Shown here: positions 4,370 through 43,087 of the stretch, one piece after another
How positions within the stretch are numbered: the stretch's first letter is position 1
Layout: each line of letters begins with the position of its first letter
Source: Treponema sp.
GTDB lineage: Bacteria; Spirochaetota; Spirochaetia; Treponematales; Breznakiellaceae
NCBI GenBank assembly: GCA_031256035.1
Contig: JAIRRJ010000066.1
Span: 1 to 43,087, forward strand
DNA: 43,087 nucleotides
Reading direction: 5' to 3'
Position numbers and translations under genes: made by a program
The notes under the pieces: model-generated
Database searches by the model: none
Seen by the model: only the letters and a program-made list of their open reading frames with translations
Told to the model about the DNA's origin: nothing

Positions 4370-4450
4370 CTCGCAGAGGTGCAGAGCTCGCGAAGAACGC
4401 CAAGCCTTACTTCGTTTTTTCTTTGCGACCTTGGCGTACTTGGCGAGAGA
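4370..4450. repeat. Third dispersed repeat, inverted ACGCCAAG type
   Basis: The word ACGCCAAG at 4397-4404 returns inverted at 4430-4437, and CTCGC near 4370 is mirrored by GCGAG at 4443-4447, giving an imperfect hairpin of about 80 bases. A related fragment, CGCAAAGACGCCAAGG, occurs at 23249-23264 between the FGGY kinase gene and ruvC. Repeats built on words of this kind are found between genes in several prokaryotes. Confidence 0.5.
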
Positions 4451-4494
4451 AAATGGGGATAGTGTTTTATCGAATTAAAATTAAGGAGTTTTGT

Positions 4495-4545
4495 ATGAAA
4501 AAACAATCTTACTTTGCTCACTGCTCACTGGTAACTGCTAACTAG
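4495..4545 (+). pseudogene. Orphaned gene start (AAGGAG + ATG) running into repeat sequence
   Basis: AAGGAG at 4483-4488 stands six bases before an ATG at 4495, an ideal initiation site, and the reading frame begins MKKQSYF. After seven codons it enters the repeat at 4516-4544 and stops at 4543-4545, giving only 16 residues. This looks like the initiation region of a gene whose body was separated from it by repeat insertion. It could alternatively be a functional leader peptide, for which there is no further evidence. Confidence 0.4.
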
Positions 4546-4589
4546 GATGATCTGGAAAAAAAAAAATAAAAACGGTATATTTTCAGTGT

Positions 4590-26933: not shown

Positions 26934-28391
26934 ATGAACAAAAAGATTAAGGTCACATTTTTGTTTGCGGTATTGACCCTGTCGGCGACATATGTCCACG
27001 CCCAGCAATTAGACAGTGAAACTGATTTTTTATGGGAAATATCCAGCGATAATAATTCGGTAACCATTACCAAGTATGTGGGGGAGCATACTGAGCTGCG
27101 AATTCCTCACCGCATACACGGCCTGCCGGTTACCGTGATTGGGGATTGGGCGTTTTTCGATAAACAGCTGACAAGCGTTGTCATTCCCGATTCTGTTACG
27201 CGTATTGGAGAAGATGCATTTAGCGTTAATCAGCTAACAGAACTGGTCATTCCAAGTTCCGTTACACACATAGGGAAATCGGCTTTTTCTTCAAATCAGT
27301 TAGAGCGTGTTCATATTCCCCATTCCATTGTCCGCATAGAATATGGTACGTTTGATACTAATCATCTAACTAATATTGAAATTCCTGATTCCATTACATA
27401 TATTGGAAGTTTCGCGTTTTTCAGAAACAAACTTGAATATGTGGTCATTCCCAATTCTGTTACCTTCATTGGAAGTACCGCATTTGCTGCAAACAAACTG
27501 ACCCATATAGCAATTCCTGATTCCGTTACCGAGATTGAAGAAAGTGCGTTTTCCGCTAATCTTTTGACGAGTGTTGAGATTCCTCATTCAATTACCTATA
27601 TAGAATCAGGAACATTTTCACGAAATAAATTGACCAGCGTTGTCATTCCCGATTCGGTTACCGGGATTGGCACGGACGCTTTTACAAACAATCAGCTAAC
27701 TGAAGTTGTTGTTCCCCGTGCAGCAAAATTTGGAATATCGGCATTTGATCGTAAGGTAAAGATAAAAAAAAGGCGCAGCAATGGTGAAATATATTCAGAT
27801 GAGTATCCGGTTAATTTAAATTTTGCTTATAGTTGGCTGGATCATCGTAACGGTATTATAAACCATTATTCCAGTTCCAATGGGGATGAAACATCTTATT
27901 ATTTTTCCGCAGATTTATTTAAGTACAATATCATAAGTGCAGATACCAATATTGGTTTGTTTTTGTCTCCGCTGCAATATACCTATATATATGCTCCGCA
28001 TACTCAGTTGTTAAGTTTTATCAATGCAGCCATATACTTTAATTTATTAGAGGAGAAATCTGGAGCGTATGACGAAGTTGAAAATATTTTTGGTCCGTTT
28101 TTTTCGATAAACTGGTTAAATATGTATAATTATAATGAATTTGATGTAAAAGATATTATTTATAGTGCAGGGTTTCTGTGGTCATGGAGGGTATTTGGTT
28201 ATGACAGTTATAATGGTATTAAAACCATTAAAAGCCGCACGTATAACATCAATAAATTTACCCTTGAAGTTGGATACAAAAATATGCGTAAAAAAGATAA
28301 TTTCTATATAGGTGTACAAATATCTGATCCACTGATATTTTTATCAATGATGTCATATTATATTTTTGCATTGTTCGGGTATTCTCCTTAA
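26934..28391 (+). CDS. Secreted BspA-like leucine-rich repeat protein with beta-rich C-terminal domain
   Basis: A 485-residue protein. Residues 1-23 form a signal peptide ending VHA-QQ. Nine LRRs of exactly 22 residues (consensus IPDSVTxIGxxAFxxNxLTxV) cover about residues 75-265. This is the N-x-L subclass. The last 200 residues are not LRR and are rich in aromatic and alternating residues (NLNFAYSWLDHRNGI, FTLEVGYKNMRKKDNFYIGV), in a pattern that suggests a small outer-membrane beta barrel or beta sandwich. BspA-type LRRs mediate adhesion in oral and gut bacteria. TATAAT ends three bases before the ATG and no ribosome binding site is visible. It is separated from the immunity block by 135 bases. 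Confidence 0.8.
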   Translation: MNKKIKVTFLFAVLTLSATYVHAQQLDSETDFLWEISSDNNSVTITKYVGEHTELRIPHRIHGLPVTVIGDWAFFDKQLTSVVIPDSVTRIGEDAFSVNQLTELVIPSSVTHIGKSAFSSNQLERVHIPHSIVRIEYGTFDTNHLTNIEIPDSITYIGSFAFFRNKLEYVVIPNSVTFIGSTAFAANKLTHIAIPDSVTEIEESAFSANLLTSVEIPHSITYIESGTFSRNKLTSVVIPDSVTGIGTDAFTNNQLTEVVVPRAAKFGISAFDRKVKIKKRRSNGEIYSDEYPVNLNFAYSWLDHRNGIINHYSSSNGDETSYYFSADLFKYNIISADTNIGLFLSPLQYTYIYAPHTQLLSFINAAIYFNLLEEKSGAYDEVENIFGPFFSINWLNMYNYNEFDVKDIIYSAGFLWSWRVFGYDSYNGIKTIKSRTYNINKFTLEVGYKNMRKKDNFYIGVQISDPLIFLSMMSYYIFALFGYSP

Positions 28392-28441
28392 ATGAAATAG
28401 TTATGGTATCACCCCCAATCACCCGAAATTCACCCTAACAT

Positions 28442-28478
28442 CACCCTCACTCACCAAAAATTCACCCAAAAGGGTGAT
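28442..28478 (+). repeat. GGGTGA-hairpin repeat, left copy
   Basis: CACCCTCACTCACC followed by TTCACCCAAAAGGGTGAT (28461-28478), a hairpin with a TCACCC/GGGTGA stem and AAAA loop. Preceding bases (28408-28441) are rich in further CACCC words. The same ordered words occur at 41700-41732, so the twelve-gene block lies between two copies. The sequence just before the first block gene also holds AAGGAG (28515-28520), its ribosome binding site. Confidence 0.7.
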
Positions 28479-28526
28479 ATGAGCCTCCTGCGCATTTCCC
28501 GTAAAATACCATAAAAGGAGTTAATT

Positions 28527-29336
28527 ATGTCTGGTGCATTAGAAAAGATTTTTCAGGATAAGGGTTATACGGTTTCAATAATACCGATGGCCAATGCGGC
28601 AATGGTTTCCTGCGTTTTGGGAAATCCTATGAATATTCTAACAGCTGGCTGCGGCAATGCTGAATTTGTAAAACAATACAGCGCGATGTATACCGAAGCC
28701 GCCAAATCCACAAATTGTGAGATGAAACTAAAAGGCGATTGGTTCTATTATGGAACGCCCGATGCCGTTTTGCTTTTTGAAAGCATAGACCTTAACGAAG
28801 CATATCAATATATGTCTCTCAATCATTTTGAAAAGTGTGATGACGAGGAAGATGAAATCGATGAAGAATCCTTTCAAAAATATACTGAATTGATAGAGCA
28901 GTATTCTAAAAAGGGTGATTTTTTTGGGGAAGTAAGCGTTGAAGCAATTCAAAATGCGGAAGCTGCGTTAGGTGTAAAATTTCCAAATGAATACTGGAAT
29001 TTCATAAGATCATACGGCTCAGGCGGTATATGCGGTGTGGAAATAACCGGTGTTGAGGACGATGAGGCATCAGTGGTGAAAGCAACTGAACGATACCGAA
29101 AATTGGGTTTGGATAAAAACATTGTGGTGGTGTGGGATGTGGGCGAATTCATTTATTGTATGGACACCTCTCAAGAAGGCAGTGTCGTTTATACATGGGA
29201 CCGAAACGATAAGGATTTGATTAAGTGGCATGATAGCTTTAATGAATTTGTCTTTGATGTTTTTGATAATGCGGTCAATGACGAATACGACGAAGAAGTT
29301 GATGAATACGAAGATGAGGAAGAAGATGACGACTAA
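28527..29336 (+). CDS. SUKH (SMI1/KNR4) family immunity-like protein
   Basis: A 269-residue cytoplasmic protein. Residues about 136-250 form a SUKH domain: VEAIQNAEAALGVKFPNEYW, FIRSYGSGGI and IVVVWDVGEFIYCMDTS match the family pattern. SUKH proteins neutralise nuclease and other toxins of polymorphic and LXG systems, as B. subtilis YobK does for YobL. The N-terminal 110 residues are of unknown type (TVSIIPMANAAMVSCVLGNP). The C-terminal tail is strongly acidic (DEYEDEEEDDD), which may mimic nucleic acid. AAGGAG precedes the ATG. It is the first gene of the block, and the next gene overlaps its 3' end. No matching toxin lies in the window. Confidence 0.78.
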   Translation: MSGALEKIFQDKGYTVSIIPMANAAMVSCVLGNPMNILTAGCGNAEFVKQYSAMYTEAAKSTNCEMKLKGDWFYYGTPDAVLLFESIDLNEAYQYMSLNHFEKCDDEEDEIDEESFQKYTELIEQYSKKGDFFGEVSVEAIQNAEAALGVKFPNEYWNFIRSYGSGGICGVEITGVEDDEASVVKATERYRKLGLDKNIVVVWDVGEFIYCMDTSQEGSVVYTWDRNDKDLIKWHDSFNEFVFDVFDNAVNDEYDEEVDEYEDEEEDDD

Positions 29337-32300
29337 CATGGAAAAATCACCGCTTTATAGAATCGATAACGACTTGGTAAAAAAAACCAAGTTTGAAACT
29401 TTTGCCAAAAAACATCTGCAAATCTTTTTGGAAAGCGGGAAAAATGCACAACATGAATATGCGCCGCTTATGTTTGCAGCTTGGCTGGGAGATTTTGATG
29501 CGGTACAACAGCTTTTATCGCAGGGCGCAAATGTAAACATTGAAACTGAGCATGGCCATACCGCACTGTTTTATGCCGTTGATGCCTCCCACCTCAAAAT
29601 AATTGAACGCTTGATTCAGGCAGGGGCCAATATAAACCATCAGGACAAAGAGAATAAAAATACCGTTTTGTTTGAGGCGGTGGAAAATTTAAGAGAAACT
29701 GAACGCTTAGACATTATTCGTTTATTGCTGCAAAGCGGGGCTGATCCCAATATTCATTGCCACTGGGAAGATACCGCTTTGCACCAGGCGGCATGGTATG
29801 GTGAACCTGAGTGTATCAAAATACTTCTGGAATACAATGCCGACGTTAATGCAAGAGGCATTCGTAAAGAAACGCCGCTTATGAAGGCGGGCAAGAAAGA
29901 ATGTGCCGCATTGCTCCTTGCGGCAGGCGCAACAATTAATGAAACGGCAAAAGACGGCTGGACAGCCTTGATGCATGCAGCCAGCAGCGGCAATGCTGAG
30001 GTGCTCGAATTTCTTTTGCAGAATGGCGCGAACCCGGACGTGATGGACAGCTATTTTAAAATGAGCGCTATGCAATGGGCAATATCACATAGCCACATCG
30101 AATGCGTAAAAATTCTTCTCAAGTATAATGCAAGTATCACTTTTAATAAATTTAAAACTCCGCTTATGATTGCCTGCAAGGATGGCAAGAAAGAATTTGC
30201 AGTATTGATGCTTGATGCAGGCGCATCAATTAATGAAACGACAAAATACGGCTGGACAGCCTTGATGAATGCAGCTCTTTACGGCCAGACTGAAGCTGTC
30301 GAATTTCTTTTGCAAAACGGCGCAGACCCGAACATTCCGGAAAATACTAAAAATACCGCTTTGCAATATGCGGCGGAAGAAGGCTATACCGAATGTATCA
30401 AAATGCTTCTGAAACATAATGCAGCCGTCAATACCAAAAACGATGAGGGAGTTACGCCGCTCATGTCTGCCAGCCGGGCGGGTGAGACAGAAATTATAGA
30501 ACTGTTAATACAGGCAGGCGCATTGGTGAATGAAACGGCAAATGATGGTTTTACCGCTTTGATGCACGCTGTTAATAAAGGCAATGCGGAAGCTGCCGAA
30601 TTGCTTTTGGACAAAGGCGCAGACCAAACGATTAAGACAAAAAAAGGCGAAACCGCCCTTTCCATTGCGGAAAAGAAAAAGAAAAAAGCCATTGCGGAAC
30701 GCTTACGTTTGTATCAACAATACGGCGCCGGAAGCCCCGAACTTAAAGTAAAGAAACCCATAAAACAAACAGCGCCTGAAAAACAGGAAGCGGCGGCAAA
30801 GGAAGAGCCAATAATACTTGAAAAAGACTTTAGCGTTATCCAAAATGCAGATGGCAGTTGCATTTTGCAAAAATATACTGGCTCTGATTCTGTTGTAATC
30901 ATTCCTGACGGCGTAACAAGCATTGGAGAGCAGGCATTTTGGAGATGCGTCAACCTGACGAGTATCACCATACCAAATGGTGTTACCAATATCGGTGGGG
31001 GTGCATTTTATGAATGCAGCAGCCTGACGAGTATCACCATACCTGATAGCGTAACAAAGATCAGTGATAGCGCATTTTCAGATTGCAGCGATTTGGCGAG
31101 CGTTACGATACCGAAAAGCGTTACCGAAATTGGACGACAGACGTTTCGTGGCTGTAAAGGTTTAACTAGCATCACCATACCCGATAGCGTAACCAATATT
31201 GGAGAGCAGGCATTTTATTTTTGCAAAAATCTTGCATACGTTACCTTACCCAATGGCATAAAAAATCTCTCAGAAAATATATTTGGCGGCGCCGGCTTAA
31301 AGCATATTGACATACCGGACAGTGTGGAAAGTATTGACGATGAAGCATTTGACCATTGCGATTTGATCAGCGTTACGATACCGGGCAGTGTGAAAAACAT
31401 TGGCAGCTCGGCATTTTGCGCGACCAATTTGGTAAGCATTTACATACCCAAAAGCGTAACCAGTATCGGCGATGGTGCGTTTGCCTGCTACACTTTGGAA
31501 AACATTGAGGTAGAAAGCGGCAATAAAATATACCGAAGCGAAAATAACTGCTTAATACGGATTGCAGATAACGCATTGATAGCAGTCAGCAGAAACAGCG
31601 TGATACCGGACAGCGTAAAAAGTATTTCCAATGAAGCATTCTTTAATTGCAGCTATATGACAAGTATTATACTTCCAAACAGCATAACCAGTATCGGCGA
31701 AGGAGCATTTCGTTGGTGTGTAAGTTTAGAAAATATCACCTTACCCGAAAGCCTCACCAATATCGGTGAATATGCATTCATCGATTGTAAAAAATTAACC
31801 AGCATCACTATCCCCAAAGGGGTAACAAAAATCAATAGAGGCGTGTTTCGCAGATGCGAAAGTTTGAAAAGCGTTGTCTTTTTGGGAGACATAAAAACGA
31901 TAGAGAAATATGCGTTTATGGAATGTGGAAATTTGGAAACCATAGCCGTTCAGAACGAAGTGGAAAAAATCGACTATGACGCATTTGCCGGCTGCGATAA
32001 ATTAACCACTCCGGTTCCGCTTAAGAAAAAAGACCTGTCAAGTTATGACATACCGAAATTAACGGTCTGTTTTACCGGTGCGCTTAAAAAAATCAAACGT
32101 GACGATGCCAAAAAATTGGTAGAAGAATTAGGCGGACAAACAGCGCCCTCAATAAACAAGAAAGTAAATCTGGTGGTTGTCGGCGCCGATGCGGGCAGCA
32201 AGCTGGAAAAGGCATACGACCTTGAAATCGATATGATTAACGAGCATGAATTTTTAACGATGCTGAAAATTAAAGGAAAACTGCCGGATACGATTGAAAT

Positions 32301-33156
32301 ACCAGCGGAACAAAACGGTTTTGAATTTACGAAAGAACAAAGGGCAACGCTTAAAGATTGTGTTGAAGATGAAACATTAACCAAAAAATCCGCTAAGCTG
32401 CTTGAAAAATTCGTTAAGAAAAATGTTATTCCCTGTTACAATCTTACCATTGACAAAGGCGAACCAACGCCATTGGACAGCTCCATCGGCGGAATACCGT
32501 ATTGCCCTGTCGGCGAAGAACTGCCCAAAGATGAAAACGGCAAAGAAATCCCCCTGCTTATCCAAATAAATTTTGATGGCATTGAACTTCCCGGTTATCC
32601 CCGTAAAGGCATTTTTCAACTCTTTATGGAAGGAGACGATGATCGTTTTGACCTCAGCGCTGGCAGCCGCATTCGTTATTATGAAGACATCAGCGCCGAT
32701 TACCGGAAGGATATTTCATTTTCAAATCATTTGCAGGCCGGCCCATGCGGAAAAAAAATACCCGATGATCAACGCCATTTCAAAATTAAACTTGAAAAGG
32801 GCTGGTCTATGTATCCGCTTGGCTATTCCAATTCTTTTGAAGATGATGTGTGGCTTTTTGATGACTGCACAATTTACCACCAGCTTTTAGCGGAAGTTGA
32901 AGCAGAAAGTTTAAGTGAAATTTTTGCAGAATTATTTGAGCACGAACGCTCCAACATAGGCGGTTATGGATGCACCCCGCAGGGGCAGAGCTGTATGCCT
33001 TATTCAGTTGCAAAAAACAAAAGTGATGCTCAATTGCTCTTTTTGGCAGAAGACATAATTGACTGGGGCGATTGCGGATGTATTTTCTTTGGCTACAAAG
33101 ATATAACCACAATGAAAAAAGATGAATCATTGTGGGGAAATGGAGATATGGCGTAA
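29326..33156 (+). CDS. Ankyrin - BspA LRR - BRCT - DUF1963 (YwqG) fusion protein
   Basis: A 1276-residue protein without signal peptide. About 12-13 ankyrin repeats span residues 45-465 (for example GWTALMHAASSGNAEVLEFL). A charged linker leads into about 16 BspA-type LRRs of the 23-residue C-x-x-L class (residues 498-900). A BRCT domain follows at about 910-982 (TVCFTGALKKIKRDDAKKL, EELGGQTAPSINKKVNLVVV), of the type found in NAD-dependent DNA ligase. Residues about 1031-1275 are DUF1963/YwqG (LTIDKGEPTPLDSSIGGIPY, GGYGCTPQGQ), a family frequent in polyimmunity loci. The start at 29326 is chosen because GAGGA stands five bases before it; it overlaps the SUKH gene by 11 bases. The domain identities are seen by pattern; the joint function is unknown. 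The BRCT is unexpected here. Confidence 0.8.
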   Translation: MTTNMEKSPLYRIDNDLVKKTKFETFAKKHLQIFLESGKNAQHEYAPLMFAAWLGDFDAVQQLLSQGANVNIETEHGHTALFYAVDASHLKIIERLIQAGANINHQDKENKNTVLFEAVENLRETERLDIIRLLLQSGADPNIHCHWEDTALHQAAWYGEPECIKILLEYNADVNARGIRKETPLMKAGKKECAALLLAAGATINETAKDGWTALMHAASSGNAEVLEFLLQNGANPDVMDSYFKMSAMQWAISHSHIECVKILLKYNASITFNKFKTPLMIACKDGKKEFAVLMLDAGASINETTKYGWTALMNAALYGQTEAVEFLLQNGADPNIPENTKNTALQYAAEEGYTECIKMLLKHNAAVNTKNDEGVTPLMSASRAGETEIIELLIQAGALVNETANDGFTALMHAVNKGNAEAAELLLDKGADQTIKTKKGETALSIAEKKKKKAIAERLRLYQQYGAGSPELKVKKPIKQTAPEKQEAAAKEEPIILEKDFSVIQNADGSCILQKYTGSDSVVIIPDGVTSIGEQAFWRCVNLTSITIPNGVTNIGGGAFYECSSLTSITIPDSVTKISDSAFSDCSDLASVTIPKSVTEIGRQTFRGCKGLTSITIPDSVTNIGEQAFYFCKNLAYVTLPNGIKNLSENIFGGAGLKHIDIPDSVESIDDEAFDHCDLISVTIPGSVKNIGSSAFCATNLVSIYIPKSVTSIGDGAFACYTLENIEVESGNKIYRSENNCLIRIADNALIAVSRNSVIPDSVKSISNEAFFNCSYMTSIILPNSITSIGEGAFRWCVSLENITLPESLTNIGEYAFIDCKKLTSITIPKGVTKINRGVFRRCESLKSVVFLGDIKTIEKYAFMECGNLETIAVQNEVEKIDYDAFAGCDKLTTPVPLKKKDLSSYDIPKLTVCFTGALKKIKRDDAKKLVEELGGQTAPSINKKVNLVVVGADAGSKLEKAYDLEIDMINEHEFLTMLKIKGKLPDTIEIPAEQNGFEFTKEQRATLKDCVEDETLTKKSAKLLEKFVKKNVIPCYNLTIDKGEPTPLDSSIGGIPYCPVGEELPKDENGKEIPLLIQINFDGIELPGYPRKGIFQLFMEGDDDRFDLSAGSRIRYYEDISADYRKDISFSNHLQAGPCGKKIPDDQRHFKIKLEKGWSMYPLGYSNSFEDDVWLFDDCTIYHQLLAEVEAESLSEIFAELFEHERSNIGGYGCTPQGQSCMPYSVAKNKSDAQLLFLAEDIIDWGDCGCIFFGYKDITTMKKDESLWGNGDMA

Positions 33157-33167
33157 AGGAGGAAATT

Positions 33168-35129
33168 ATGAAACGCACATCTACTTTGTTTAAGAATGTT
33201 GATCTACACCGGTTTTTCGGAACAAGCGGAGAAAACAAACCGCTGGTAAAAAAAGCGGTAAAGAAAGTTGAGAAACGGCTTGAGTTCTCAATTCCTCAAG
33301 CGTATCTGGAATTGTTAAGCGTTAAAAACGGGGATGACCAACAGCGAAAATTCAGCCAAAGTTTTAAGGACATGACCGGATTCTTTTCGCTTGTCAATCT
33401 TGAAACTGCAAAAGAAAAAAGCATACTTGAAGAGGCAGGGTATCCCCCTATCGGCATATATTTTGCTGTTACGCTCAACGCTGAACATGAAGCGCTGGTT
33501 ATGAATTACCGGGAAATTCGTAAAAATAAAGAACCTTCGATATGGCTTCTCGATCTGAAACTAAAAACCGGAACATTAATTGCCGATACATTCGAGGAAT
33601 TTATCGAGAAAATAGTTGCAATTCAGGGTTATCCCGGCGAAAAAAGAAGCGGCAAAAAAGAAAAAACCGGCAGCCGTGAAAAACCGGAGACAAAAGATTT
33701 TTTCGATTGGATCAATGACGAAGAACATTTTGAAAATAAAGACGGCACAACTAATTATCCCAAGTTGGCCAAAAGATTGATGGAAAAAGCTGAGCGAGGG
33801 GATGATGGTTGCCAATACCATTTGGGAAGTTTCTATCAAGATGGAATCGGGGTAGAGCAAAGTTATGAAAAAGCATTTTATTGGTTTACCAAAGCTGCGG
33901 AGCAAGGGCATACCGATGCTATGGTTAATTTGGGAGTTTGCTATTTTTTCGGGCGGAGTGTCGAGAAAGATTATAAAAAAGCCGTCTCATGGTGGAATAA
34001 GGCGGAAAAAAATAATGGTTCAGCCTGGGCACAAAACAATTTGGGAAACAGATATTACAACGGAGAGGGGGTGGAGCAAAGCTTTAAAAAAGCGGCAGCG
34101 TACTGGACAAAAGCGGCAAAACAAGGGCATGCAGGATCGCAGAATATGCTGGGATCCTGTTATGAAAAAGGAGAAGGCGTAACGCAAGATTATACCGAAG
34201 CCGTACGATGGTATCAGAAATCTGCAAAGCAGGGAAACGAAGATGCCAAAAAAAGTCTGGAAGAATTATCAACAAAATTAGGCGCAAAGAAATTTAATGC
34301 GCTCTGTGTGGAAACAGAAGAAAACTATACTCCGGGTTTAACGTTCTACCCCGTAAATAACGGTAAGGGATGGACAATCGGTGGATCAGGATATAAAGAC
34401 GGCGGGCCTCATGAGGCTGAGGAATTAATAATTCCGGCAACACACAAGGGTTTGCCCGTAATCAAAATCAGCAACTTTGCGCTTCAATCGTACCGATTCA
34501 CGAAAATCACGCTTCCAAACACGCTCACCCATATCGCTGAACATGGGATGTCGGGTTGCAGCAACTTTACCAACCTCATGATACCCGCCAATGTAACAAC
34601 TATCGAAAGCGGGTTGACGAGTGGTTGTAATAGTTTAACGAGCATTGACATTGACCGCAGCAATAAGGTGTACCGAAGCGAAAATAATTGCGTGATAAAA
34701 GATAAGACCTTAATAGCGGGATGCAGAACCAGCATTATTCCGGACGGCATAACGTATATTGCCGCCGGCGCTTTTCACTTCTGCAGATACTTAACGCATA
34801 TCACCATACCCGAAGGCGTAACTCGAATTGGCGATCATGCGTTTTGCGGGTGTGAAAATTTAAAAACGCTCGTGCTGCCCGCCAGTTTGAAAAGAATCGA
34901 ATCATTGGGATTTTCCGGCTGCGATTCCCTGCACAGCATTTTTTACTGTGGAGATGCCGAAAAACTGAAAACCATAAAAATGGTTTATTACACGAAACAT
35001 ACAGGTAATAGCGATTACACCCACGGGCAGCTTTATGACGCAGACCTTTATTTTTATTCCGAAACAAAGCCCGCAAAAAAAGGCAACTACTGGCATTTTA
35101 GTGACAGTGGAAAGCCGCTTGTGTGGTGA
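33168..35129 (+). CDS. SUKH - Sel1 repeat - BspA LRR fusion protein
   Basis: A 653-residue cytoplasmic protein. The N-terminal 150 residues are a SUKH domain (KKVEKRLEFSIPQAYLELL, PPIGIYFAVTLNAEHEALVM, IADTFEEFIEKIV). A basic/acidic linker (about 160-200) leads to four Sel1-like repeats at about 207-367 (YHLGSFYQDGIGVEQSYEKA). BspA-type LRRs fill about 407-610, including the insert module NKVYRSENNCVI. Sel1 repeats are scaffold repeats; SUKH is a toxin-immunity fold. The start at 33168 is fixed by AAAGGAGG; an in-frame ATG twelve codons upstream lies inside the previous gene. It follows the fusion gene by 11 bases and precedes the LRR gene by 16. The combination is unlike SUKH proteins of known toxin-immunity pairs. 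Confidence 0.8.
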   Translation: MKRTSTLFKNVDLHRFFGTSGENKPLVKKAVKKVEKRLEFSIPQAYLELLSVKNGDDQQRKFSQSFKDMTGFFSLVNLETAKEKSILEEAGYPPIGIYFAVTLNAEHEALVMNYREIRKNKEPSIWLLDLKLKTGTLIADTFEEFIEKIVAIQGYPGEKRSGKKEKTGSREKPETKDFFDWINDEEHFENKDGTTNYPKLAKRLMEKAERGDDGCQYHLGSFYQDGIGVEQSYEKAFYWFTKAAEQGHTDAMVNLGVCYFFGRSVEKDYKKAVSWWNKAEKNNGSAWAQNNLGNRYYNGEGVEQSFKKAAAYWTKAAKQGHAGSQNMLGSCYEKGEGVTQDYTEAVRWYQKSAKQGNEDAKKSLEELSTKLGAKKFNALCVETEENYTPGLTFYPVNNGKGWTIGGSGYKDGGPHEAEELIIPATHKGLPVIKISNFALQSYRFTKITLPNTLTHIAEHGMSGCSNFTNLMIPANVTTIESGLTSGCNSLTSIDIDRSNKVYRSENNCVIKDKTLIAGCRTSIIPDGITYIAAGAFHFCRYLTHITIPEGVTRIGDHAFCGCENLKTLVLPASLKRIESLGFSGCDSLHSIFYCGDAEKLKTIKMVYYTKHTGNSDYTHGQLYDADLYFYSETKPAKKGNYWHFSDSGKPLVW

Positions 35130-35145
35130 AATAAGGAGAAACAAG

Positions 35146-36591
35146 ATGAAAACCAATTTAGATTTCTGCTTGACAGAAAACAAGAAGGCCTACGAGGTGC
35201 TAAAAATGACGGCCAATGATGTTACTGAGGTAAAAATACCTTCAGTCTTTGCCGGCAAGCCGGTGGTCGGTATAAAAAAAGCAGCGTTTAAATGCAATGC
35301 TTCGATACAGAAAGTTTTTATTCCCGACAGCGTAACAACAATAGAGGGTGACGCTTTTGCTGAGTGCGTGGCTTTGAAAAGCGTATCATTTTCAAAAAGT
35401 GTAACAAAAATCGGAAGTTACGCTTTTGCTTTCTGCAAAAGTTTAGAAGAGGTTCGTCTTCCCGACAGCGTTGACGAAATGGGCAAAGGGGTATTTTACG
35501 CCTGTAAAGCATTGAAAAAAGTAAAACTCCCCGAAGGCATAAAGGACATAAAAGAGAAAATGTTCCAAAATTGCGTGTCTCTTGAACGCATTGAACTGCC
35601 GGACAGTGTGGTTAAGCTGGGCGGCGGTCAGGGCGGCGTTTTTGAAGGATGCAAAAATTTAAAGGAAGTTAAACTTTCCGATAAAATAAAAAGATTGCAC
35701 GATTTAACATTCGGAGAATGCAAGAGTCTTACAGAGATTGTTATACCAGATAGTGTTACCAAAATAGATAATGCGTTTGAAAAATGCGGAAAATTGCATC
35801 AGCTTAATTTGCCCAAAAATTTACAAACAATTGAAGGGGCTTTCTGGGGGTGCAGTTTTAAAGAGTTAAAAATACCAAAAAGCGTAACCCAAATTGGCAG
35901 TGACTGCTTTAGTTTTTTTCTCGGTGCAAAAGGCTTAGAATGCATAAGCGTTGAAGAAGGAAATAAGATTTATAAAAGCGATGGAAATTGTCTCATAAGG
36001 ATTAAGGATAATGCGCTTATATTGGGCAGCGCAAAAAGCATAATTCCAAATTATGTAACAAGCATAGGTGATAGTGCGTTTGCCGCTGCAACAAACCTAA
36101 AGAGTATTGTTATACCAGAGGCAGTAAAAAGCATAGGAAGATATGCATTTGGCGGCTGCGCAAAACTTACGGCTATTGCTATTTCTGAAAATGTTTCTGA
36201 AATAGCGGAAGGTGCTTTTCGGAGTTGTACCGCTCTGAAAGAAATTGTTGTCGCAAAGAAAAATAAAAAATTTAAGAGCGATGGCAACTGTTTGATAAAA
36301 ATTGCAAATAATGAACTTATCGCAGGCTGCAAGGAAAGCGTGTTGCCAAGCTATGTAAAAATAATTGGCGAATCTGCGTTTATGGGAATAAGCGGTTTAA
36401 CAAGCATTGTTATTCCGGCAGGAGTCAAAAAAATAGGAGACCGTGCGTTTATGGGTTGCAAGAATCTAGCTAAAGTTGTTATGAAAGATAACATAGAAAC
36501 TGGTATATACGCATTTGGAGATACGAAATGGGGAAAACAAACTATTTCCTTATCGAAGCCGCAAAAACGCCCTAAATCGGCGGAACGGTAG
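35146..36591 (+). CDS. Cytoplasmic BspA-type leucine-rich repeat protein
   Basis: A 481-residue protein made almost wholly of TpLRR/BspA repeats of 22-24 residues (IPDSVTTIEGDAFAECVALK). No signal peptide or membrane segment is present, in contrast to the gene at 26934. Two insert modules of the type NKxxKSDGNCLIRI...LI..GxxxSI(I/L)P interrupt the repeats at about residues 270-300 and 375-405, which also occurs once in each of the two upstream fusion proteins. AAGGAG precedes the ATG. The C-terminus is basic (KPQKRPKSAER). It has no attached immunity domain, so it may be a scaffold partner of the fusions or a fusion that lost its effector part. Confidence 0.75.
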   Translation: MKTNLDFCLTENKKAYEVLKMTANDVTEVKIPSVFAGKPVVGIKKAAFKCNASIQKVFIPDSVTTIEGDAFAECVALKSVSFSKSVTKIGSYAFAFCKSLEEVRLPDSVDEMGKGVFYACKALKKVKLPEGIKDIKEKMFQNCVSLERIELPDSVVKLGGGQGGVFEGCKNLKEVKLSDKIKRLHDLTFGECKSLTEIVIPDSVTKIDNAFEKCGKLHQLNLPKNLQTIEGAFWGCSFKELKIPKSVTQIGSDCFSFFLGAKGLECISVEEGNKIYKSDGNCLIRIKDNALILGSAKSIIPNYVTSIGDSAFAAATNLKSIVIPEAVKSIGRYAFGGCAKLTAIAISENVSEIAEGAFRSCTALKEIVVAKKNKKFKSDGNCLIKIANNELIAGCKESVLPSYVKIIGESAFMGISGLTSIVIPAGVKKIGDRAFMGCKNLAKVVMKDNIETGIYAFGDTKWGKQTISLSKPQKRPKSAER

Positions 36592-36614
36592 GGGAATAAA
36601 CAAAGGAGGTTTAT

Positions 36615-38159
36615 ATGAAACGATCATTGGTACTCCAAAATGGAGATACGCAAAAGTTTTGGCAAGTTGAAGTTATCAGGATGAATCTGACGGTAACTCA
36701 CGGCACGGTTGGTACGGAAGGGCAATCCTTTACAACACCTTTTAAAAGCAAAATAGAATGTCTAAAGGAAGCAAACCGGTTAACCAATGAAAAAATGAAA
36801 GAGGGCTATAAGAAAGCAGGCGATGACACGGCAATGCCCGATACAGTTGATACTCCGAAAGGTGGAAACGCTTCAATGGAAGCAAAGTTACACGAATTGT
36901 ATGGTGAAATCGCAAACAATCTAAACTCATTCATTCCGGTGGAGTGGGAAAAAATTTATTTGTATGGAGAGGTGGGAAAGAACCAAGCGCATTATTCTGT
37001 ATCTTTTTATTATGTTGCCTCTAATGGAGATATAAAAAGAGGAGATGATCTGGAGAATAGTGGCCGTGTTTCTGAAGTTATTTTTGATAATTTTATAGAT
37101 GAATTGGAGGAAATGACCCTTGCGTTAAACAATTGTTTCAAGGAAGCAGGACAGGAATTGTGGGAACAAGTTTCTTTCACCCTTGAAAACTCAGGAAAGT
37201 TTGATGTGCAATATTTCTACGATGTAATACACAAAAACGATGGGGGCAGTTTACCAAGAGAAGTGGTATGGGCGCACAAAACATTTGGATTTAATCCGCC
37301 TGAGGGTAATTATTTAAGACAGTTGTTGGATCAGTATAAAGATAAAAAACCTAGAGGTTTTTTTAAAGAAAACTTGCAGGAGGGCAATATGAACAACGAA
37401 AAAGACTTTGTGATGGACAAAAACGGTATTATAACCAAGTACACTGGTACGGAAACCAATGTTGTAATACCGGCGGAAATTGGCAAAATTGCAGTGCGGG
37501 TGATCGGCGCATCAGCATTTGGAAAAATGTCAATTGATAGAGTTAAGGGGAAGATGATAGAGCATATCGTTATTCCTGAAGGGGTAATCGAAATAGTCGG
37601 TGGAGCATTTCGTGGAAATTCATTTACCGATCTTACCCTTCCTGAAAGCGTAACAACCATTGGCGATTGTGCGTTTGCAAATAATAAAATAAATGCGCTT
37701 GTTTTTTCTGAAAATGTAACGGAAATAGGCGATGGTGCGTTTCAAGACAATAAAATAAAAACGCTTACGCTTCCAAAGGGATTAACGGCAATTGGCTGCG
37801 GAGCATTTTCAGTAAACAAATTGACAGAGCTTGTTATTCCCTCAGACGTAACAAAAATCGGTGCGCATACATTCTCCGAAAACCAACTGGTGCAAATTAC
37901 TCTTCCAGAAAATCTAACTGAAATTGGTGAAAATGCATTTGCAAAAAACAAACTAACCGAAATTGTTATTCCAAACAAAGTAACGCAAATTGCCAATTAT
38001 GCGTTTTCCGGAAATAAATTAACCAGCATCACTATTGGTGGCAATGTATCTTTCACCACATCATCATTTAGCAAAGGTTTTAAGGTTTTCTATGATGAAA
38101 ACGGAAAGAAAGCCGGAAAATATGTATTTGACGGTGAAAATTGGAACACATCAGCGTAA
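36615..38159 (+). CDS. WGR - YezG (DUF600) - BspA LRR fusion protein
   Basis: A 514-residue protein in three parts. Residues 1-75 are a WGR domain (VTHGTVGTEGQSFTTPFKSK, ANRLTNEKMKEGYKK). Residues 88-250 are a YezG-type (DUF600) immunity domain (MEAKLHELYGEIANNLNSFI, WEKIYLYGEVGKNQAHYSVS, VVWAHKTFGFNPPEGNYL); B. subtilis YezG neutralises the LXG toxin YeeF. From residue 259 there are seven or eight LRRs of the 22-residue N-x-L class. An excellent internal ribosome binding site AGGAGGG (37378-37384) stands before an in-frame ATG (37389) exactly at the LRR boundary. This suggests recent fusion of formerly separate genes, or separate internal translation of the LRR part. AAAGGAGG precedes the main start. 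Confidence 0.8.
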   Translation: MKRSLVLQNGDTQKFWQVEVIRMNLTVTHGTVGTEGQSFTTPFKSKIECLKEANRLTNEKMKEGYKKAGDDTAMPDTVDTPKGGNASMEAKLHELYGEIANNLNSFIPVEWEKIYLYGEVGKNQAHYSVSFYYVASNGDIKRGDDLENSGRVSEVIFDNFIDELEEMTLALNNCFKEAGQELWEQVSFTLENSGKFDVQYFYDVIHKNDGGSLPREVVWAHKTFGFNPPEGNYLRQLLDQYKDKKPRGFFKENLQEGNMNNEKDFVMDKNGIITKYTGTETNVVIPAEIGKIAVRVIGASAFGKMSIDRVKGKMIEHIVIPEGVIEIVGGAFRGNSFTDLTLPESVTTIGDCAFANNKINALVFSENVTEIGDGAFQDNKIKTLTLPKGLTAIGCGAFSVNKLTELVIPSDVTKIGAHTFSENQLVQITLPENLTEIGENAFAKNKLTEIVIPNKVTQIANYAFSGNKLTSITIGGNVSFTTSSFSKGFKVFYDENGKKAGKYVFDGENWNTSA

Positions 38160-38645
38160 ATATAAGGAGAAGAAACATGGAAGCAAAGTTACACGAAATG
38201 TATGGCAAAATTGCAAATCACCTCAATGCAATGGTTCCGGTTGAATGGGATAAAATTTATTTGTTGGGAGAGGTGGAAAAAGAGCAGTTAAGTTGGAGCG
38301 CATCATTTTACTGCGTTGAATCTAAAAGCGGTGAAATAAAAAGAGGTATGGAGCTTATGAAAGAACATGGGGTTCAGGATTATCATAAGCTCATTAATAA
38401 TTTATCGAGAATGATTCTTGCGTTAAACAATTGTTTTAAGGAAGAAGGGCAGGAATTGTGGGAACAGGTTTCTTTCACCCTTGAAAACTCAGGAAAGTTT
38501 GATGCGCAATATTTCTACGATGTGATGCACGAAAATGACGGCGGCCAGTTACCCCGAGAAGTGGTGTGGGCGCACAAAACATTTGGATTTAATCCGCCAG
38601 AGGGTAATTTTTTAAGAGAGCTGTTGGATAAGTATAAAGATAAAA
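36876..38645 (+). repeat. Tandem duplication of the YezG module
   Basis: The segment 36876-37353 (inside the WGR fusion) and the segment 38177-38645 (stand-alone gene) are direct repeats. They share long identical runs, including the region around GCGCACAAAACATTTGGATT at 37273 and 38571. The first copy is now embedded between WGR and LRR parts. Confidence 0.8.
37378..37391 (+). promoter_or_regulatory. Internal Shine-Dalgarno and start codon at a domain boundary
   Basis: AGGAGGGCAATATG lies within the WGR-YezG-LRR gene and in frame with it; the ATG is codon 259. Strength and spacing equal those of real starts in this operon, so a 256-residue LRR-only product could be made from the same message. 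Confidence 0.5.
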
Positions 38646-38653
38646 CCCGTTAG
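38177..38653 (+). CDS. YezG (DUF600) family immunity protein
   Basis: A 158-residue single-domain protein that aligns over its full length with residues 88-250 of the preceding fusion: MEAKLHEMYGKIANHLNAMV, WDKIYLLGEVEKEQLSWSAS and the nearly invariant C-terminal region EVVWAHKTFGFNPPEGNFL. YezG proteins are cytoplasmic antitoxins/immunities for LXG-type nuclease toxins. The nucleotide sequences of the 3' halves are also very similar, which shows recent tandem duplication. AAGGAG precedes the ATG, seventeen bases after the fusion gene. Divergence is highest in the middle (residues 40-85), where toxin contacts may lie; this is inference. Confidence 0.85.
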   Translation: MEAKLHEMYGKIANHLNAMVPVEWDKIYLLGEVEKEQLSWSASFYCVESKSGEIKRGMELMKEHGVQDYHKLINNLSRMILALNNCFKEEGQELWEQVSFTLENSGKFDAQYFYDVMHENDGGQLPREVVWAHKTFGFNPPEGNFLRELLDKYKDKTR

Positions 38654-38662
38654 GAGAGAAAC

Positions 38663-38944
38663 ATGAAATACAATGAAAAATTATTGGAAACTCTTATTAA
38701 TGAGGCAAATTCAAGTGGTGAATTTGTGTACATAACAGAATGGTTGGGGTACTTACCGTATGGACAATACCAATGGATAGAAATTGATAACAAAGAGATT
38801 TCGATGAAAACTGGATGGGGTAAACAAGATTTGGAAAAATTAGTTGAACTTGAATTTATAATAAAAATATCAGAAGAAAATATTTCTGATGATAAAACAA
38901 TAATAAAATATAAAATGAAAAACGAAATGGAGAACAAACAATGA
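38663..38944 (+). CDS. Small hypothetical protein in the immunity operon
   Basis: A 93-residue soluble, acidic protein of no family I recognise. It starts with helix (YNEKLLETLINEANSSGE), has a short aromatic stretch (WLGYLPYGQYQWIEI) and a segment KQDLEKLVELEFIIKISEEN that could be the recognition region of a small winged-helix fold. GGAGAG stands before the ATG, nine bases after the YezG stop. Its stop overlaps the next ATG (ATGA), so it is translationally coupled to the Imm22-like protein. Given the setting it is most likely another immunity protein or a small regulator. Confidence 0.6.
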   Translation: MKYNEKLLETLINEANSSGEFVYITEWLGYLPYGQYQWIEIDNKEISMKTGWGKQDLEKLVELEFIIKISEENISDDKTIIKYKMKNEMENKQ

Positions 38945-39297
38945 GCGCTGAAAACAATGTATCAATCTGGTTTGGTAAATTTGATACCGAAGATGAGTTT
39001 GAAACTTTTCTGAAAAAAACTTATAACGAAGATGGAGATAGTATGCCTTCACCTTTTGTAAATGCTTTTCAAATTGGTTCTTACGATGCGGACTTTCAGG
39101 AAGCATTTTTTGATAATGACTTGAACAAATCAAGCCTTGAAGATGTTTCATATTCAGAACATTTTTTGGATAAAATCGAAGTTGATTTTTCAAAATATAA
39201 TGCCACAATTCTGTTGTACAACTATAAGCACGATGGAAAAATTAAAAAAGCAGAAAGCGTAGATTTTTACGGAGTGCTCGGTTATGAGGAAGATTAA
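38941..39297 (+). CDS. Immunity protein 22-like (DUF4284)
   Basis: A 118-residue protein with the Imm22/DUF4284 pattern: VSIWFGKFDTEDEFETFL at the start, then SPFVNAFQIGSYDADFQEAF and a closing ILLYNYKH strand. Members of this family are predicted immunity proteins of polymorphic toxins. No toxin partner is in the window. GGAG precedes the overlapping start. The assignment is from remembered family pattern and should be regarded as probable. Confidence 0.6.
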   Translation: MSAENNVSIWFGKFDTEDEFETFLKKTYNEDGDSMPSPFVNAFQIGSYDADFQEAFFDNDLNKSSLEDVSYSEHFLDKIEVDFSKYNATILLYNYKHDGKIKKAESVDFYGVLGYEED

Positions 39298-39317
39298 CAA
39301 CATATGGAGGAAAAAAC

Positions 39318-39692
39318 ATGAAACAAAAACTAAGCGTATGGGGACGTGAGTTCGACCTTGACGTAGAATTTGATTGTTACACGGGAAAAGAGAAACAGCC
39401 TTATCAGGAAGATGCTTTCAAAGCATTTTTGTCATGCAGCAATCTTGTTGACGATTCTCTTGATGAGGTAAAAAAGTATTGCATTGATCGAGACGAAGAA
39501 AAAACCGGCGATGTCATTGAAAACATATTCAAGTATGTAATACCGCAATCATTATTTATTCGCCGCAATTCAAAAAGCGACCATGTTGTAGCTTTAATGT
39601 GCGCATATAAATTTGATGAGGAACACGGCATAGCTGTTGTGTTTAAGAATGAGCAGCTTGATGAAGTTACCGATCAAGGTAGTGTTTTATGA
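39318..39692 (+). CDS. Small immunity-like protein, DUF6985/DUF2004-type
   Basis: A 124-residue acidic protein starting LSVWGREFDLDVEFDCYTG, with QEDAFKAFLSCSN and DDSLDEVKKYCIDRD. This start, a beta-strand pair followed by a helix that counts across several acidic residues, resembles small proteins of the DUF2004/DUF6985 groups found among immunity genes; the match is uncertain. ATGGAGG precedes the ATG (39308-39314). It continues the tight operon, 20 bases after the Imm22-like gene. Confidence 0.5.
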   Translation: MKQKLSVWGREFDLDVEFDCYTGKEKQPYQEDAFKAFLSCSNLVDDSLDEVKKYCIDRDEEKTGDVIENIFKYVIPQSLFIRRNSKSDHVVALMCAYKFDEEHGIAVVFKNEQLDEVTDQGSVL

Positions 39693-39704
39693 AATGGAGG
39701 AAAA

Positions 39705-40178
39705 ATGAAGTTTATGATGGATATTGCCGAATTTCTTATTGAAAAATCCCTTGAACAGAATGGTTTAATAATAAATATTTATATCAATGGCAAAAAATTA
39801 AGTGATATACTTAAAGAATATGAAAAACAATTTGATGAAAAAATTGCTGGTAAGTATGATGGTATTCCCTTGTCATATTTTGGAGATATAATAAAACACT
39901 TTACGGGAAAAATAGATAAAGATATGTTAAATTATAATGGAAAAACACAATTACTCGGTTGCGCTTGTGGTGAAGCTGGTTGTTGGCCATTTTTATCAAA
40001 AATAAAAACGAACAATAATATATTAACTTGGAATGAATATGAACAACCGCATAGAAAAATAAATTCTTCCGGCGGATATTGGGATTACAGTAATTTGCAA
40101 TCATTTACATTTAATAAAATAGATTATGAAAATAATTTATTAAGGGCTGTAGAAACAATTAAAATGGGGGAAAAATGA
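39705..40178 (+). CDS. Conserved hypothetical protein with LLGCACGEAGCWP motif
   Basis: A 157-residue protein. It begins with an INIYINGKKLSDIL strand-helix, has the motif GKTQLLGCACGEAGCWPFL near residues 79-97 with three cysteines, and QPHRK...GYWDYSNLQSFTF downstream. This pattern (YINGxxL ... LLxCxCGExGCWP ... WDYS) is widespread among small uncharacterised bacterial proteins, several near immunity genes, but I have no name for it. The cysteine cluster suggests metal binding. TGGAGG precedes the ATG. The next gene overlaps it (ATGA). The base composition is distinctly AT-rich from here on. Confidence 0.6.
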   Translation: MKFMMDIAEFLIEKSLEQNGLIINIYINGKKLSDILKEYEKQFDEKIAGKYDGIPLSYFGDIIKHFTGKIDKDMLNYNGKTQLLGCACGEAGCWPFLSKIKTNNNILTWNEYEQPHRKINSSGGYWDYSNLQSFTFNKIDYENNLLRAVETIKMGEK

Positions 40179-40813
40179 ATAAAAACATTGGCATTATCGG
40201 AAATAAAAATAAAGCAAGATTTATTTTCCAGACCATAATAAATTGCAAAGACATTGACTATAAAAAAATATTTGTTAGTAAAGATATTGTTTCTGATAAT
40301 AGGCAATATTTGGAAACCATTAGCAAGTTTGATGTGGAAAATTTAACAAACCAATTATTTTTTTATCCAGAGGAATATATCTTTGAATGGCATATTCAAA
40401 AACACCCTTTTTTTGCAGAGTTACCATATAAGATAGAAATGCTTGATAATATTAATGTATTTGAGGATATTAAACAAATAATAAAAAATGCAGATATATT
40501 ATTTGTATTAAATAATCAAGATAAATTAGAAGAATATTTAAGTGTTGTTGAAAATAATGATGATTTTCATTTAATTTTAATGGGAAATAATATGAAATTT
40601 GAAGAAATTGAAAAAATAATTCCAAATATTAAAGTATTTATATGTTCTTTGTCTATAACGCCTTTAGCTCAATTCGTTGTAAAATTATGTTACAATAAAA
40701 ATGTAACAAAAAATGATCATCAAATAATAGATACAATATTAAAAACATTTGGTTGTGTATTTGATTATAAAAATAATGAAGATAAATATTGGAATGAAAT
40801 ATTATTGATATAA
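40175..40813 (+). CDS. P5C-reductase-like nucleotide-binding protein lacking the dimerisation domain
   Basis: A 212-residue, very AT-rich gene. The sequence begins NIGIIGNKNKARFIF in the place of the dinucleotide-binding GxGxMA loop, continues with KNADILFVLNNQDKLEEYL, and reaches EIEKIIPNIKVFICSLSITP, the position of the MPNTP-type motif of pyrroline-5-carboxylate reductase, followed by the usual helix-strand-helix DHQIIDTILKTFGCVFDY. It then ends where the helical dimerisation/catalytic domain should begin. The glycine loop is altered too. So it is probably not a proline biosynthesis enzyme, but a nucleotide- or ligand-binding relative. It is coupled to the upstream gene by ATGA and precedes the ATP-grasp gene by 8 bases. 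Confidence 0.5.
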   Translation: MNKNIGIIGNKNKARFIFQTIINCKDIDYKKIFVSKDIVSDNRQYLETISKFDVENLTNQLFFYPEEYIFEWHIQKHPFFAELPYKIEMLDNINVFEDIKQIIKNADILFVLNNQDKLEEYLSVVENNDDFHLILMGNNMKFEEIEKIIPNIKVFICSLSITPLAQFVVKLCYNKNVTKNDHQIIDTILKTFGCVFDYKNNEDKYWNEILLI

Positions 40814-40821
40814 GGAGAAAA

Positions 40822-41694
40822 ATGAAGTTTTTATTTTGTGAAAATATACTAAAGCCAAACACCGTAGATGAAGCATTTATCGAAGAATATGCATGCGCCA
40901 TAAAAAATGGTTTTGGCATTTTATTCTATAATTTTGAAAAAAAATCAACAACACACATCAAAAAAAACGATAAAATGGAAACGATTATCTATAGAGGCTG
41001 GATGATGAAGCCAATCGAATACCGCAAAATGTATAACGACTTATTGTCAAAAAATTATCGCTTGATAAATAACCCAACCGAATTTCAAAATTGCCATTAT
41101 TTACTGGATAGCTTAAAATTTATCGAAAAATACACTCCAAAGACCATTTATCAAAAAATTGAAAATAAAAATAGTATCAATGAATTGCTCGAAAGAGCAA
41201 AAATATTTGATGGAAAAGCGTTAATGGTAAAGGATTATGTAAAATCAGAAAAGCATTATTGGGATACCGCCTGCTATGTAGAAAATTCAAAAGATACAAA
41301 AAAATTAACTGAAACGATACATAATCTGATTGAATTACGGGAAAATGATTTTAATAAAGGTATTGTGATAAGGGAGTTTATTGAGTTGAAAAACCTGGCA
41401 AAACATTCAAAAAGTAATATGCCCTTATCGGAAGAATATCGTTTATTTTTTTACAAAAATGAATTGTTGTGCGTTTTTGATTATTGGGAAGAGGGTGAGT
41501 ATCAATTTGAACATCCCCATATAAAAGCATTTGAACAAATTGCAAAAACAATAGAAAGCAATTTTTTTACGATGGATATTGCAAAAGATACAAATGGAAA
41601 CTTTATTATCATTGAACTGGGTGACGGCCAAGTATCAGGAATACCGGAAAAAGGGGATAAAAACTTGATTTACCGGGCTATAAAAGAAAGGTGA
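40822..41694 (+). CDS. ATP-grasp protein of the R2K clade (DUF4343-like)
   Basis: A 290-residue protein. The N-terminal half has the pre-ATP-grasp part (YRGWMMKPIEYRKMYNDLLS). The ATP-grasp core follows: GKALMVKDYVKSEKHYW (about residues 133-149) with lysines for nucleotide binding, GIVIREFIELKNLAKHS near 183, EEYRLFFYKNELLCVFDYW near 207, and the metal-binding end FTMDIAKDTNGNFIIIELGDGQ near 252. The family forms carboxylate-amine or similar bonds with ATP, and R2K members were proposed to modify peptides or other molecules in phage and conflict systems. AAGGAG precedes the ATG. It is the last gene before the right copy of the GGGTGA hairpin. A specific substrate is unknown. Confidence 0.7.
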   Translation: MKFLFCENILKPNTVDEAFIEEYACAIKNGFGILFYNFEKKSTTHIKKNDKMETIIYRGWMMKPIEYRKMYNDLLSKNYRLINNPTEFQNCHYLLDSLKFIEKYTPKTIYQKIENKNSINELLERAKIFDGKALMVKDYVKSEKHYWDTACYVENSKDTKKLTETIHNLIELRENDFNKGIVIREFIELKNLAKHSKSNMPLSEEYRLFFYKNELLCVFDYWEEGEYQFEHPHIKAFEQIAKTIESNFFTMDIAKDTNGNFIIIELGDGQVSGIPEKGDKNLIYRAIKER

Positions 41695-41699
41695 ACCCG

Positions 41700-41732
41700 C
41701 ACCCTCACCCAAAAATCACCCAAAAGGGTGAT
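41700..41732 (+). repeat. GGGTGA-hairpin repeat, right copy
   Basis: CACCCTCACCC followed by ATCACCCAAAAGGGTGAT (41715-41732), a seven-base stem with AAAA loop. It matches 28442-28478 in word order, so the block 28527-41694 is flanked by direct copies. It can act as a transcript hairpin in the 85-base gap before the DUF1963 gene. Confidence 0.7.
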
Positions 41733-42592: not shown

Positions 42593-42678
42593 ATTATTGT
42601 GTATGCCTCACTTCGTATAAATGGGGTTAGGCGAAATGCAATAGTTATTTTAAAAATACACTGTATATATTCAATATA

Positions 42679-42707
42679 TTGACAAAAAAATTAAACCTTT
42701 ATATTAT
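42679..42707 (+). promoter_or_regulatory. Consensus-like sigma-70 promoter with a palindrome over the -35 box
   Basis: TTGACA (42679-42684) is a perfect -35, followed by 17 bases and TATTAT (42702-42707). A perfect 12-base palindrome, TCAATATATTGA (42671-42682), overlaps the -35 box and is a natural place for a repressor to bind. The predicted message would start about 20 bases before the ATG at 42733. Confidence 0.7.
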
Positions 42708-42732
42708 TTATTTTGGAGAATGGAGAAAATAA

Positions 42733-43087
42733 ATGGAACAACTTACAAAAAAACAATTAGCATATGAAGCTCTTTTATCCCGATTACAGGGCATTGATGC
42801 ATTGTCAAATGAAGAAATTAGCAAGTTATCATGGGATGTAGCAAGCACAAAAGGAATTTGCAGTGAAGGTGGAAAATTTTATAAAGCATTTTTTTCATCA
42901 ACAGAATTTAAAGAAAAAATAATTGAATTTAGTGAAAAATACTGTATAAATGATTATGTGCTAAGAAACTTGATTATAGTAATGGGTATGAGTGCAATGA
43001 GGCTGGATGAATTTGATGATAGATATTATCAATTCTTTTTAAAAAATATAAACAATAATGATAAAAAAATAAAAAGGCAAATTAGAC
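42733..43087 (+). CDS. Partial hypothetical protein, cut by the window end
   Basis: An open frame from ATG 42733 running off the window edge, 118 codons visible. It is helical and lysine-rich: LTKKQLAYEALLSRLQGIDA, then LSNEEISKLSWDVASTKGIC, FYKAFFSSTEFKEKIIEF and a segment of LRNLIIVMGMSAMRLDEF. I do not recognise a family. GGAGA precedes the start and a near-consensus promoter lies at 42679-42707, so it begins a new transcription unit separate from the immunity operon. Confidence 0.6.
   Translation, partial: MEQLTKKQLAYEALLSRLQGIDALSNEEISKLSWDVASTKGICSEGGKFYKAFFSSTEFKEKIIEFSEKYCINDYVLRNLIIVMGMSAMRLDEFDDRYYQFFLKNINNNDKKIKRQIR

Follow-up and report, generated by a model that had tools for sequence, protein, structure and literature searches.

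A heterogeneous operon of immunity-type and scaffold-fused proteins without a visible toxin in a Treponema draft genome

Near the right end of the window analysed here, a stretch of 43087 bases, a tightly packed run of genes brings several unrelated immunity families together. Is this a toxin-free immunity locus, and was it gained as one block, as a preliminary description proposed? The whole window is a complete contig (C81) of a 3.12-Mb draft genome in 120 contigs (94.9% complete), so that its right end is the end of the assembly. Our analysis indicates that this is probably a heterogeneous polyimmunity locus, that is, an orphan immunity-type operon that would block toxins injected by neighbouring bacteria. 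From the sequence we infer that its products neutralise toxins, and broad-spectrum protection is plausible.

Gene content of the operon

The operon, referred to as operon A, comprises twelve genes on the + strand (28527-41694), separated by gaps of 1 to 23 nt or overlapping by 4 nt in two cases, which agrees with the close one-strand packing described before. Start codons were picked by ribosome-binding site (RBS) and homology, and inspection by eye reveals a purine-rich RBS before every gene except that at 29338. The first gene (28527..29336) encodes a SUKH_5 immunity-type protein whose closest solved chain is YobK (2prv). It is followed by a 1272-aa fusion of ankyrin repeats, BspA-type leucine-rich repeats (LRR_5), a LigA-like BRCT domain and a YwqG-like DUF1963 domain (29338..33156), and then by a SUKH-1 - Sel1 - LRR_5 fusion (33168..35129). 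A BspA-type LRR protein (LRR_5; 35146..36591) precedes a WGR - YezG/EsaG - LRR_5 fusion (36615..38159) and a YezG/EsaG immunity-type protein without WGR (38177..38653). The remaining genes encode a small protein (38663..38944), Imm22 (DUF4284; 38941..39297), DUF6985 (39318..39692), two further products (39705..40178 and 40175..40813, the latter with weak ProC-like similarity only, far below cut-off) and an ATP-grasp protein of R2K clade family 3 (R2K_3; 40822..41694). For three of the twelve (38663, 39705 and 40175) Pfam gave no family over cut-off.

Unrelated immunity families thus stand in tandem. Pfam matches over cut-off uphold the earlier assignment of SUKH twice, YezG twice, Imm22, DUF1963 and an ATP-grasp, and equally the joins to ankyrin, Sel1, BspA-LRR, BRCT and WGR domains. 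Gene GC content falls from 0.43, in two scaffold genes, to 0.21 at 40175, with 10 of 12 genes below 41%; the spread suggests several sources. Seven genes measure about 100-300 codons, four are longer (481 to 1272) and one has 93 codons. Directly outside operon A, a thirteenth gene of like kind, absent from the preliminary description, encodes a Pfam-assigned DUF1963 protein as a separate unit on the + strand (41780-42592). On the other side, a + strand gene at 26934..28391 encodes a BspA-type LRR protein (LRR_5) with an apparent signal peptide (by eye).

As described before, no toxin is visible: no toxin family exceeds the Pfam cut-off among the twelve genes, in a window whose right end is an assembly break. 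The sole toxin-like hint is a sub-threshold match of 39705 to PBECR3 (E 0.033, 14.5 bits, cut-off 30). The genome-wide search for toxin carriers covered RHS only and gave one marginal match of 21.1 bits (22.5 with neighbours; cut-off 22), with LRR_5 in the same frame. PADLOC, with 10 of the 13 genes scanned, returned two weak partial matches (PtuA, 19.5 bits; SspB, 13.8 bits). A promoter scan of the region found 57 against 53.8 expected and serves as the basis for no promoter claim.

Hairpin leaders, a paralogous operon and domain exchange

The hairpin TCACCCAAAAGGGTGA has three exact copies in the genome, at 28462-28477, 41716-41731 and C69:1391-1406. Allowing one mismatch reveals no further copy in the genome, where a reversed control pattern gives 0, and the 58 relatives hold no exact copy and, in four of them, a one-mismatch copy. 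The same hairpin does therefore lie near both ends of the block, as had been reported. Its placement resembles that of a leader. Leader A (28408..28478, + strand) carries tandem TCACCC motifs and the hairpin, which ends 49 nt before the ATG at 28527; leader D (41694..41732, + strand) carries TCACCC motifs and the hairpin, 48 nt ahead of the DUF1963 ATG at 41780; and the third copy ends 52 nt before the start codon at C69:1459, in the same orientation. Past the hairpin, the 28527 and C69:1459 leaders can be aligned as far as the RBS, with a score that 0 of 2000 shuffles attain; those of 28527 and 41780 align more weakly (14 of 2000 shuffles reach the score), and those of C69:1459 and 41780 are not similar (1898 of 2000 as good). 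Positions 41677-41725 and C69:1330-1378 are 96% identical over 49 nt, a stretch that extends back into the end of the ATP-grasp coding sequence. The final codons of that gene (AIKER-stop; 41677-41694) recur at C69:1330-1347 with silent changes, the rest of the gene being absent there.

Together with its TCACCC repeats, the hairpin resembles a 5' leader common to the units. The near-fixed distance and common orientation argue for a unit leader rather than a bracket around a mobile block, and the element is perhaps an operator or promoter element. A role as terminator was rejected: on the + strand there is no T run and the terminator scan makes no call; both window copies are called on the minus strand, but the region holds 12 terminator-like sites against 14.1 expected.

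The third copy leads a paralogous operon with a different gene set, operon B (C69:1459-8498). Its first gene encodes an LRR protein (LRR_5; C69:1459), followed by a second LRR protein with 57.5% aa identity to that of 35146 (C69:2385-4052), a WGR-YezG protein with 78% aa identity to that of 36615 (C69:4068-4805), a WG-repeat protein (C69:4849), a protein composed of WGR, an uncharacterised part and WG repeats (C69:5819), and a small protein of no family (C69:8022). The free-standing YezG at 38177 shares 87% aa identity with the YezG half of C69:4068. It begins where the WGR linker of that protein ends, which indicates that domains were cut and re-joined. YezG accordingly occurs in this genome as WGR-YezG-LRR, as WGR-YezG and alone. 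DUF1963 is joined to BRCT in the window versus WGR in a Bacteroidales MAG (Spi319_bin22), the DUF1963 parts being 57% identical over 314 positions, and the WGR of that MAG protein shares 67% identity with its counterpart in C69:5819 and 45% with the one in 36615. The match came from a contig scan with six short peptide patterns, which detects close relatives only and gives at least one relative. The MAG contig (L046) holds the WGR-DUF1963 gene and, on inspection by eye, a WG-repeat gene fragment (spans 1-249 and 3578-4738). Genes of this modular kind on L046 make gene exchange between phyla possible.

The GC range and the differing gene set of operon B point to piecewise assembly. The immunity set would have grown by duplication and by whole-domain swaps between genes, beside a small array of integron-like cassettes. 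Among relatives, YezG is found in 0 of 58 genomes and at 3 places in this one, which supports a gain in this lineage. That part of the earlier claim stands; that the block was gained or moved as a whole unit does not, given the GC spread and the paralogues on C69. Among 390 genomes of the order, 10 have any match to WGR-YezG and this genome alone has both domains; the other nine match at the WGR part only (five) or, in another family, at the YezG part only (four). With the BRCT-DUF1963 protein (29338) as query, 149 of 195 family genomes have a match. All matches listed outside this genome end by query position 132, within the BRCT part, leaving the DUF1963 part unmatched among them, and the BRCT-part matches listed lie mostly in open frames of LigA size. 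Viral and plasmid origins were considered and rejected: scans of viral contigs with WGR-YezG and the right-end ORF, sensitive to close relatives only, gave 0, and the 20 plasmid records that match WGR-YezG are all below 60% identity. The best-covering record, from Staphylococcus, spans 88% of the query at 27.5%, and the others cover one domain or less than 80%.

Integron-like cassettes and the origin of the block

Contig C69 starts with two small cassettes bearing integron-like sites, the second of them shortened. A pattern scan of chosen loci found 14 sites (one each on C69, C41 and C31, three on C6, four on C103, and, in two other genomes, three in G029 and one in G008); one more attC-like site on C33, cut by the contig end, was seen by eye. 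Applied to the window, the same pair scan, which misses shortened sites, found none. The right-end pattern of the sites has 12 matches in this genome, with no control match there, and occurs in 21 of 39 genus genomes, against 6 control matches in 5 genomes; the scan did not bear out some of the 12 (C17, C87 and C103:25111) as sites. When 12 of the 14 sites were aligned, leaving aside two of C6, 19 of the 37 predicted pairs showed, in at least one sequence, changes on both sides that preserve pairing; the RNAalifold covariation term is slight (-0.14). Most sites are long, with 10 of the 12 aligned measuring 173-192 nt. The LRR_5 family is large in this genome, with 78 BspA-type matches on 24 contigs, some near cassette sites (C31 and C6).

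An Xer/IntI-like recombinase scores 197-216 bits in four genomes (205 at best in this one) versus an IntI cut-off of 265. It precedes attC-like sites in three of the four loci read (C33, G029 and G008); at the fourth, in G020, the 0.6 kb read beyond it showed no such site. None of 36 genus genomes has an IntI over the curated cut-off; 10 of 59 genomes do, all of other families. At C33:1268-2596 (locus L090), L092:6010-10674 and L093:5966-8532, the tyrosine recombinase has an extra N-terminal part of ~115-170 aa, and IntI model positions ~175-235 are unmatched. Recombinase and long attC-like sites may together represent a divergent integron in this genus.

The window itself ends in an apparent integron-like cassette start with a GTTAGGC core (42629..43087, + strand), whose ORF from 42733 is truncated where the contig stops. 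Of 9 cassettes with both ends known, 7 have a start that finds its best match among 15 ends in the end of the same cassette; the two exceptions lie on C6, and in the seven (C69, C103, C33 and G029) the inverted-repeat match is 14-19 of 20 nt, reaching well past the usual core. Such repeats may help to pair contig ends. The start at 42629 best fits the end at C69:326, at 16/20 with the next at 14 among the 15 ends, while two further starts with no known end of their own likewise score 16 against the ends of other cassettes. The ends of C81 and C69 overlap at 14 of 15 positions in the same reading frame. These sequences suggest that the window continues into C69; given the cassette-end match and the overlap, C81 likely runs into C69, with both operons in one region.

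How, then, did the block arrive? A discrete mobile unit ending at the hairpin repeats, as first proposed, would account for exact copies near both ends of a block, three in the genome with no exact copy in 58 relatives, and for the arrangement in one relative (G029, locus L045) where the PilZN3 gene is directly followed by hisS. Relative to that genome, the region after PilZN3 is extra in ours; PilZN3 itself is matched strongly in just one other genome and weakly in four more. The left hairpin, however, falls within this extra stretch, behind one more LRR gene. As for an empty site, our own hisS is on C109, in whose first 6 kb nothing of the block is seen, and the comparison consequently approximates the left border only. 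The hairpins behave as upstream elements, all three preceding first genes of units; the third heads a different operon, and C69 carries no second copy; and a Pfam scan of 25 window ORFs reveals no recombinase. A repeat-bracketed unit moved whole is thus very unlikely, and its earlier proposal is not sustained. We give low credence, too, to the view that the operons are themselves cassettes captured by the recombinase of the genus integron-like system. Operon B directly follows the shortened attC-like site (by eye), a cassette seems to begin at the right end of the window, and the scan places sites on C6, C103, C41, C31 and C69, with one more read by eye on C33. Against this, the window has no site by the same scan, a 13-kb, 12-gene cassette would be extraordinary, and inspection by eye showed no matching end repeats around either operon. 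The cassettes resemble insertions between units rather than carriers of units.

Predicted function and comparison with known systems

An immunity role of DUF1963 is suggested by YwqG of Bacillus subtilis, which is encoded beside a toxin gene. In other proteins, WGR and LigA-type BRCT domains are linked to DNA ends or nicks; the window BRCT is closest to LigA BRCTs and the WGR to the Bacteroides protein 2ra8. The two YezG domains score 117.6 and 114.2 bits with PF04634, against a cut-off of 21.7, and match EsaG (PDB 8guo) at E 2.5e-13 and 2.7e-12; 36615 also exceeds the TIGR01741 cut-off (89 vs 82.05 bits). EsaG is described as separating two fragments of the EsaD nuclease and wrecking its catalytic site, with Y11, L110, V112 and F114 in the toxin-binding hydrophobic core (PMC9616950). 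At these positions the two window domains have Y, F, V, Y and Y, F, A, Y. The SUKH family is portrayed as a versatile binder of many toxins (PMC3482391). In the polyimmunity reading, the immunity-type proteins of operon A would be made together and would then bind and block incoming toxins. The YezG domains would work as EsaG does, inserting themselves into a nuclease toxin and forcing its active site open; SUKH and Imm22, and likewise DUF1963, would bind other toxins; and the ankyrin and LRR parts, perhaps with Sel1, would add further binding surfaces. The ATP-grasp and ProC-like genes may encode enzymes, which counts against immunity.

A more elaborate proposal, which we regard as unlikely, is a modular DNA-tethered immunity kit. 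Here YezG, DUF1963 and a third, uncharacterised inhibitor type would be joined combinatorially to an N-terminal WGR or BRCT, which would tether nuclease inhibitors to DNA and so bring them to DNA under attack by incoming DNase toxins. LRR, ankyrin, Sel1 and WG-repeat arms would widen the toxin range, and new combinations would arise through domain swaps between paralogous operons and between phyla. Alternatively, the fused proteins may be regulators or surface or host-interaction proteins of the BspA-LRR or WGR-LRR kind, with no part in toxin immunity, which we judge quite unlikely. The 78 LRR_5 matches on 24 contigs fit such a role, as do three proteins of a Leptospira LRR set, discussed for host invasion, that carry WGR (PMC11674859, in the portion cited), and the NCBIfam model LIC_11051 ('fibronectin-binding') matches the WGR part, far below cut-off (59.6/1000 bits). 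Yet YezG, SUKH, Imm22 and DUF1963 occur in the same polypeptides or operon, and no signal peptide is apparent by eye in the fused proteins. A polyimmunity locus therefore remains the reading we prefer.

Orphan immunity proteins are usually pictured as small single-domain proteins. Here, a single genome holds immunity-type domains in several fusions, and another phylum has such a fusion too. These provide natural comparison sets (WGR-YezG-LRR, WGR-YezG and YezG alone; BRCT-DUF1963 and WGR-DUF1963) that allow one to ask how toxin neutralisation gains from a fused DNA-binding-type or scaffold domain. Large polyimmunity loci would extend to a new kind of host, with one of them adjoining an integron-like array.

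Comparison with known systems places these features in context, within the sections of each source drawn on here. Like Treponema chromosomal integrons (PMC3607928), the neighbouring cassettes are split by pairable AAC/GTT-core sites; unlike them, 0 of 36 genus genomes have an IntI over the curated cut-off and the sites are mostly long. As in EsaD-EsaG and YeeF-YezG (PMC9616950), the YezG domains match EsaG and the contact positions are still hydrophobic or aromatic, whereas no toxin partner is seen and one YezG is fused to WGR and LRR. With rAID of Bacteroidales (PMC12247911) the locus shares co-directional immunity-type genes, including SUKH, with no toxin seen, and a conserved non-coding motif; its genes are mostly AT-rich, 10 of 12 lying below the rAID level of 41% GC. 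In contrast to rAID, the motif stands at unit starts only and not between genes, genes reach 1272 codons as against a short-gene range of about 100-300, no adjacent tyrosine recombinase is seen among 25 window ORFs scanned with Pfam, up to a contig end on the right, with the genus recombinase on C33, and the host is not a member of Bacteroidales.

The closest parallel is with polyimmunity loci (Zhang et al. 2012, PMC3482391). The available sections of that survey list Imm-Ank and Imm-LRR as immunity types, record ankyrin-immunity domain fusions and Sel1 with toxins, report a nearby recombinase for several polyimmunity cases only, and make no mention of WGR, DUF1963 or YezG. Fused polyimmunity proteins tend there to small loci, perhaps not extended ones, and extended loci appear only in certain proteobacteria, bacteroidetes, firmicutes and actinobacteria (PMC3482391). 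A literature search for WGR domain, immunity protein and leucine-rich together found none, and one joining WGR domain, leucine-rich repeat and immunity gave, by title, none on toxin immunity. As compared with the described part of the polyimmunity loci (PMC3482391), the present locus is distinguished by WGR, BRCT and WG-repeat fusions in its operons, by large fused proteins within an extended locus, by two paralogous operons led by the same hairpin, and by its probable spirochaete host. It nevertheless shows co-directional unrelated immunity families with small gaps and no toxin between them, that is to say, the traits tested for such loci apart from a nearby recombinase.
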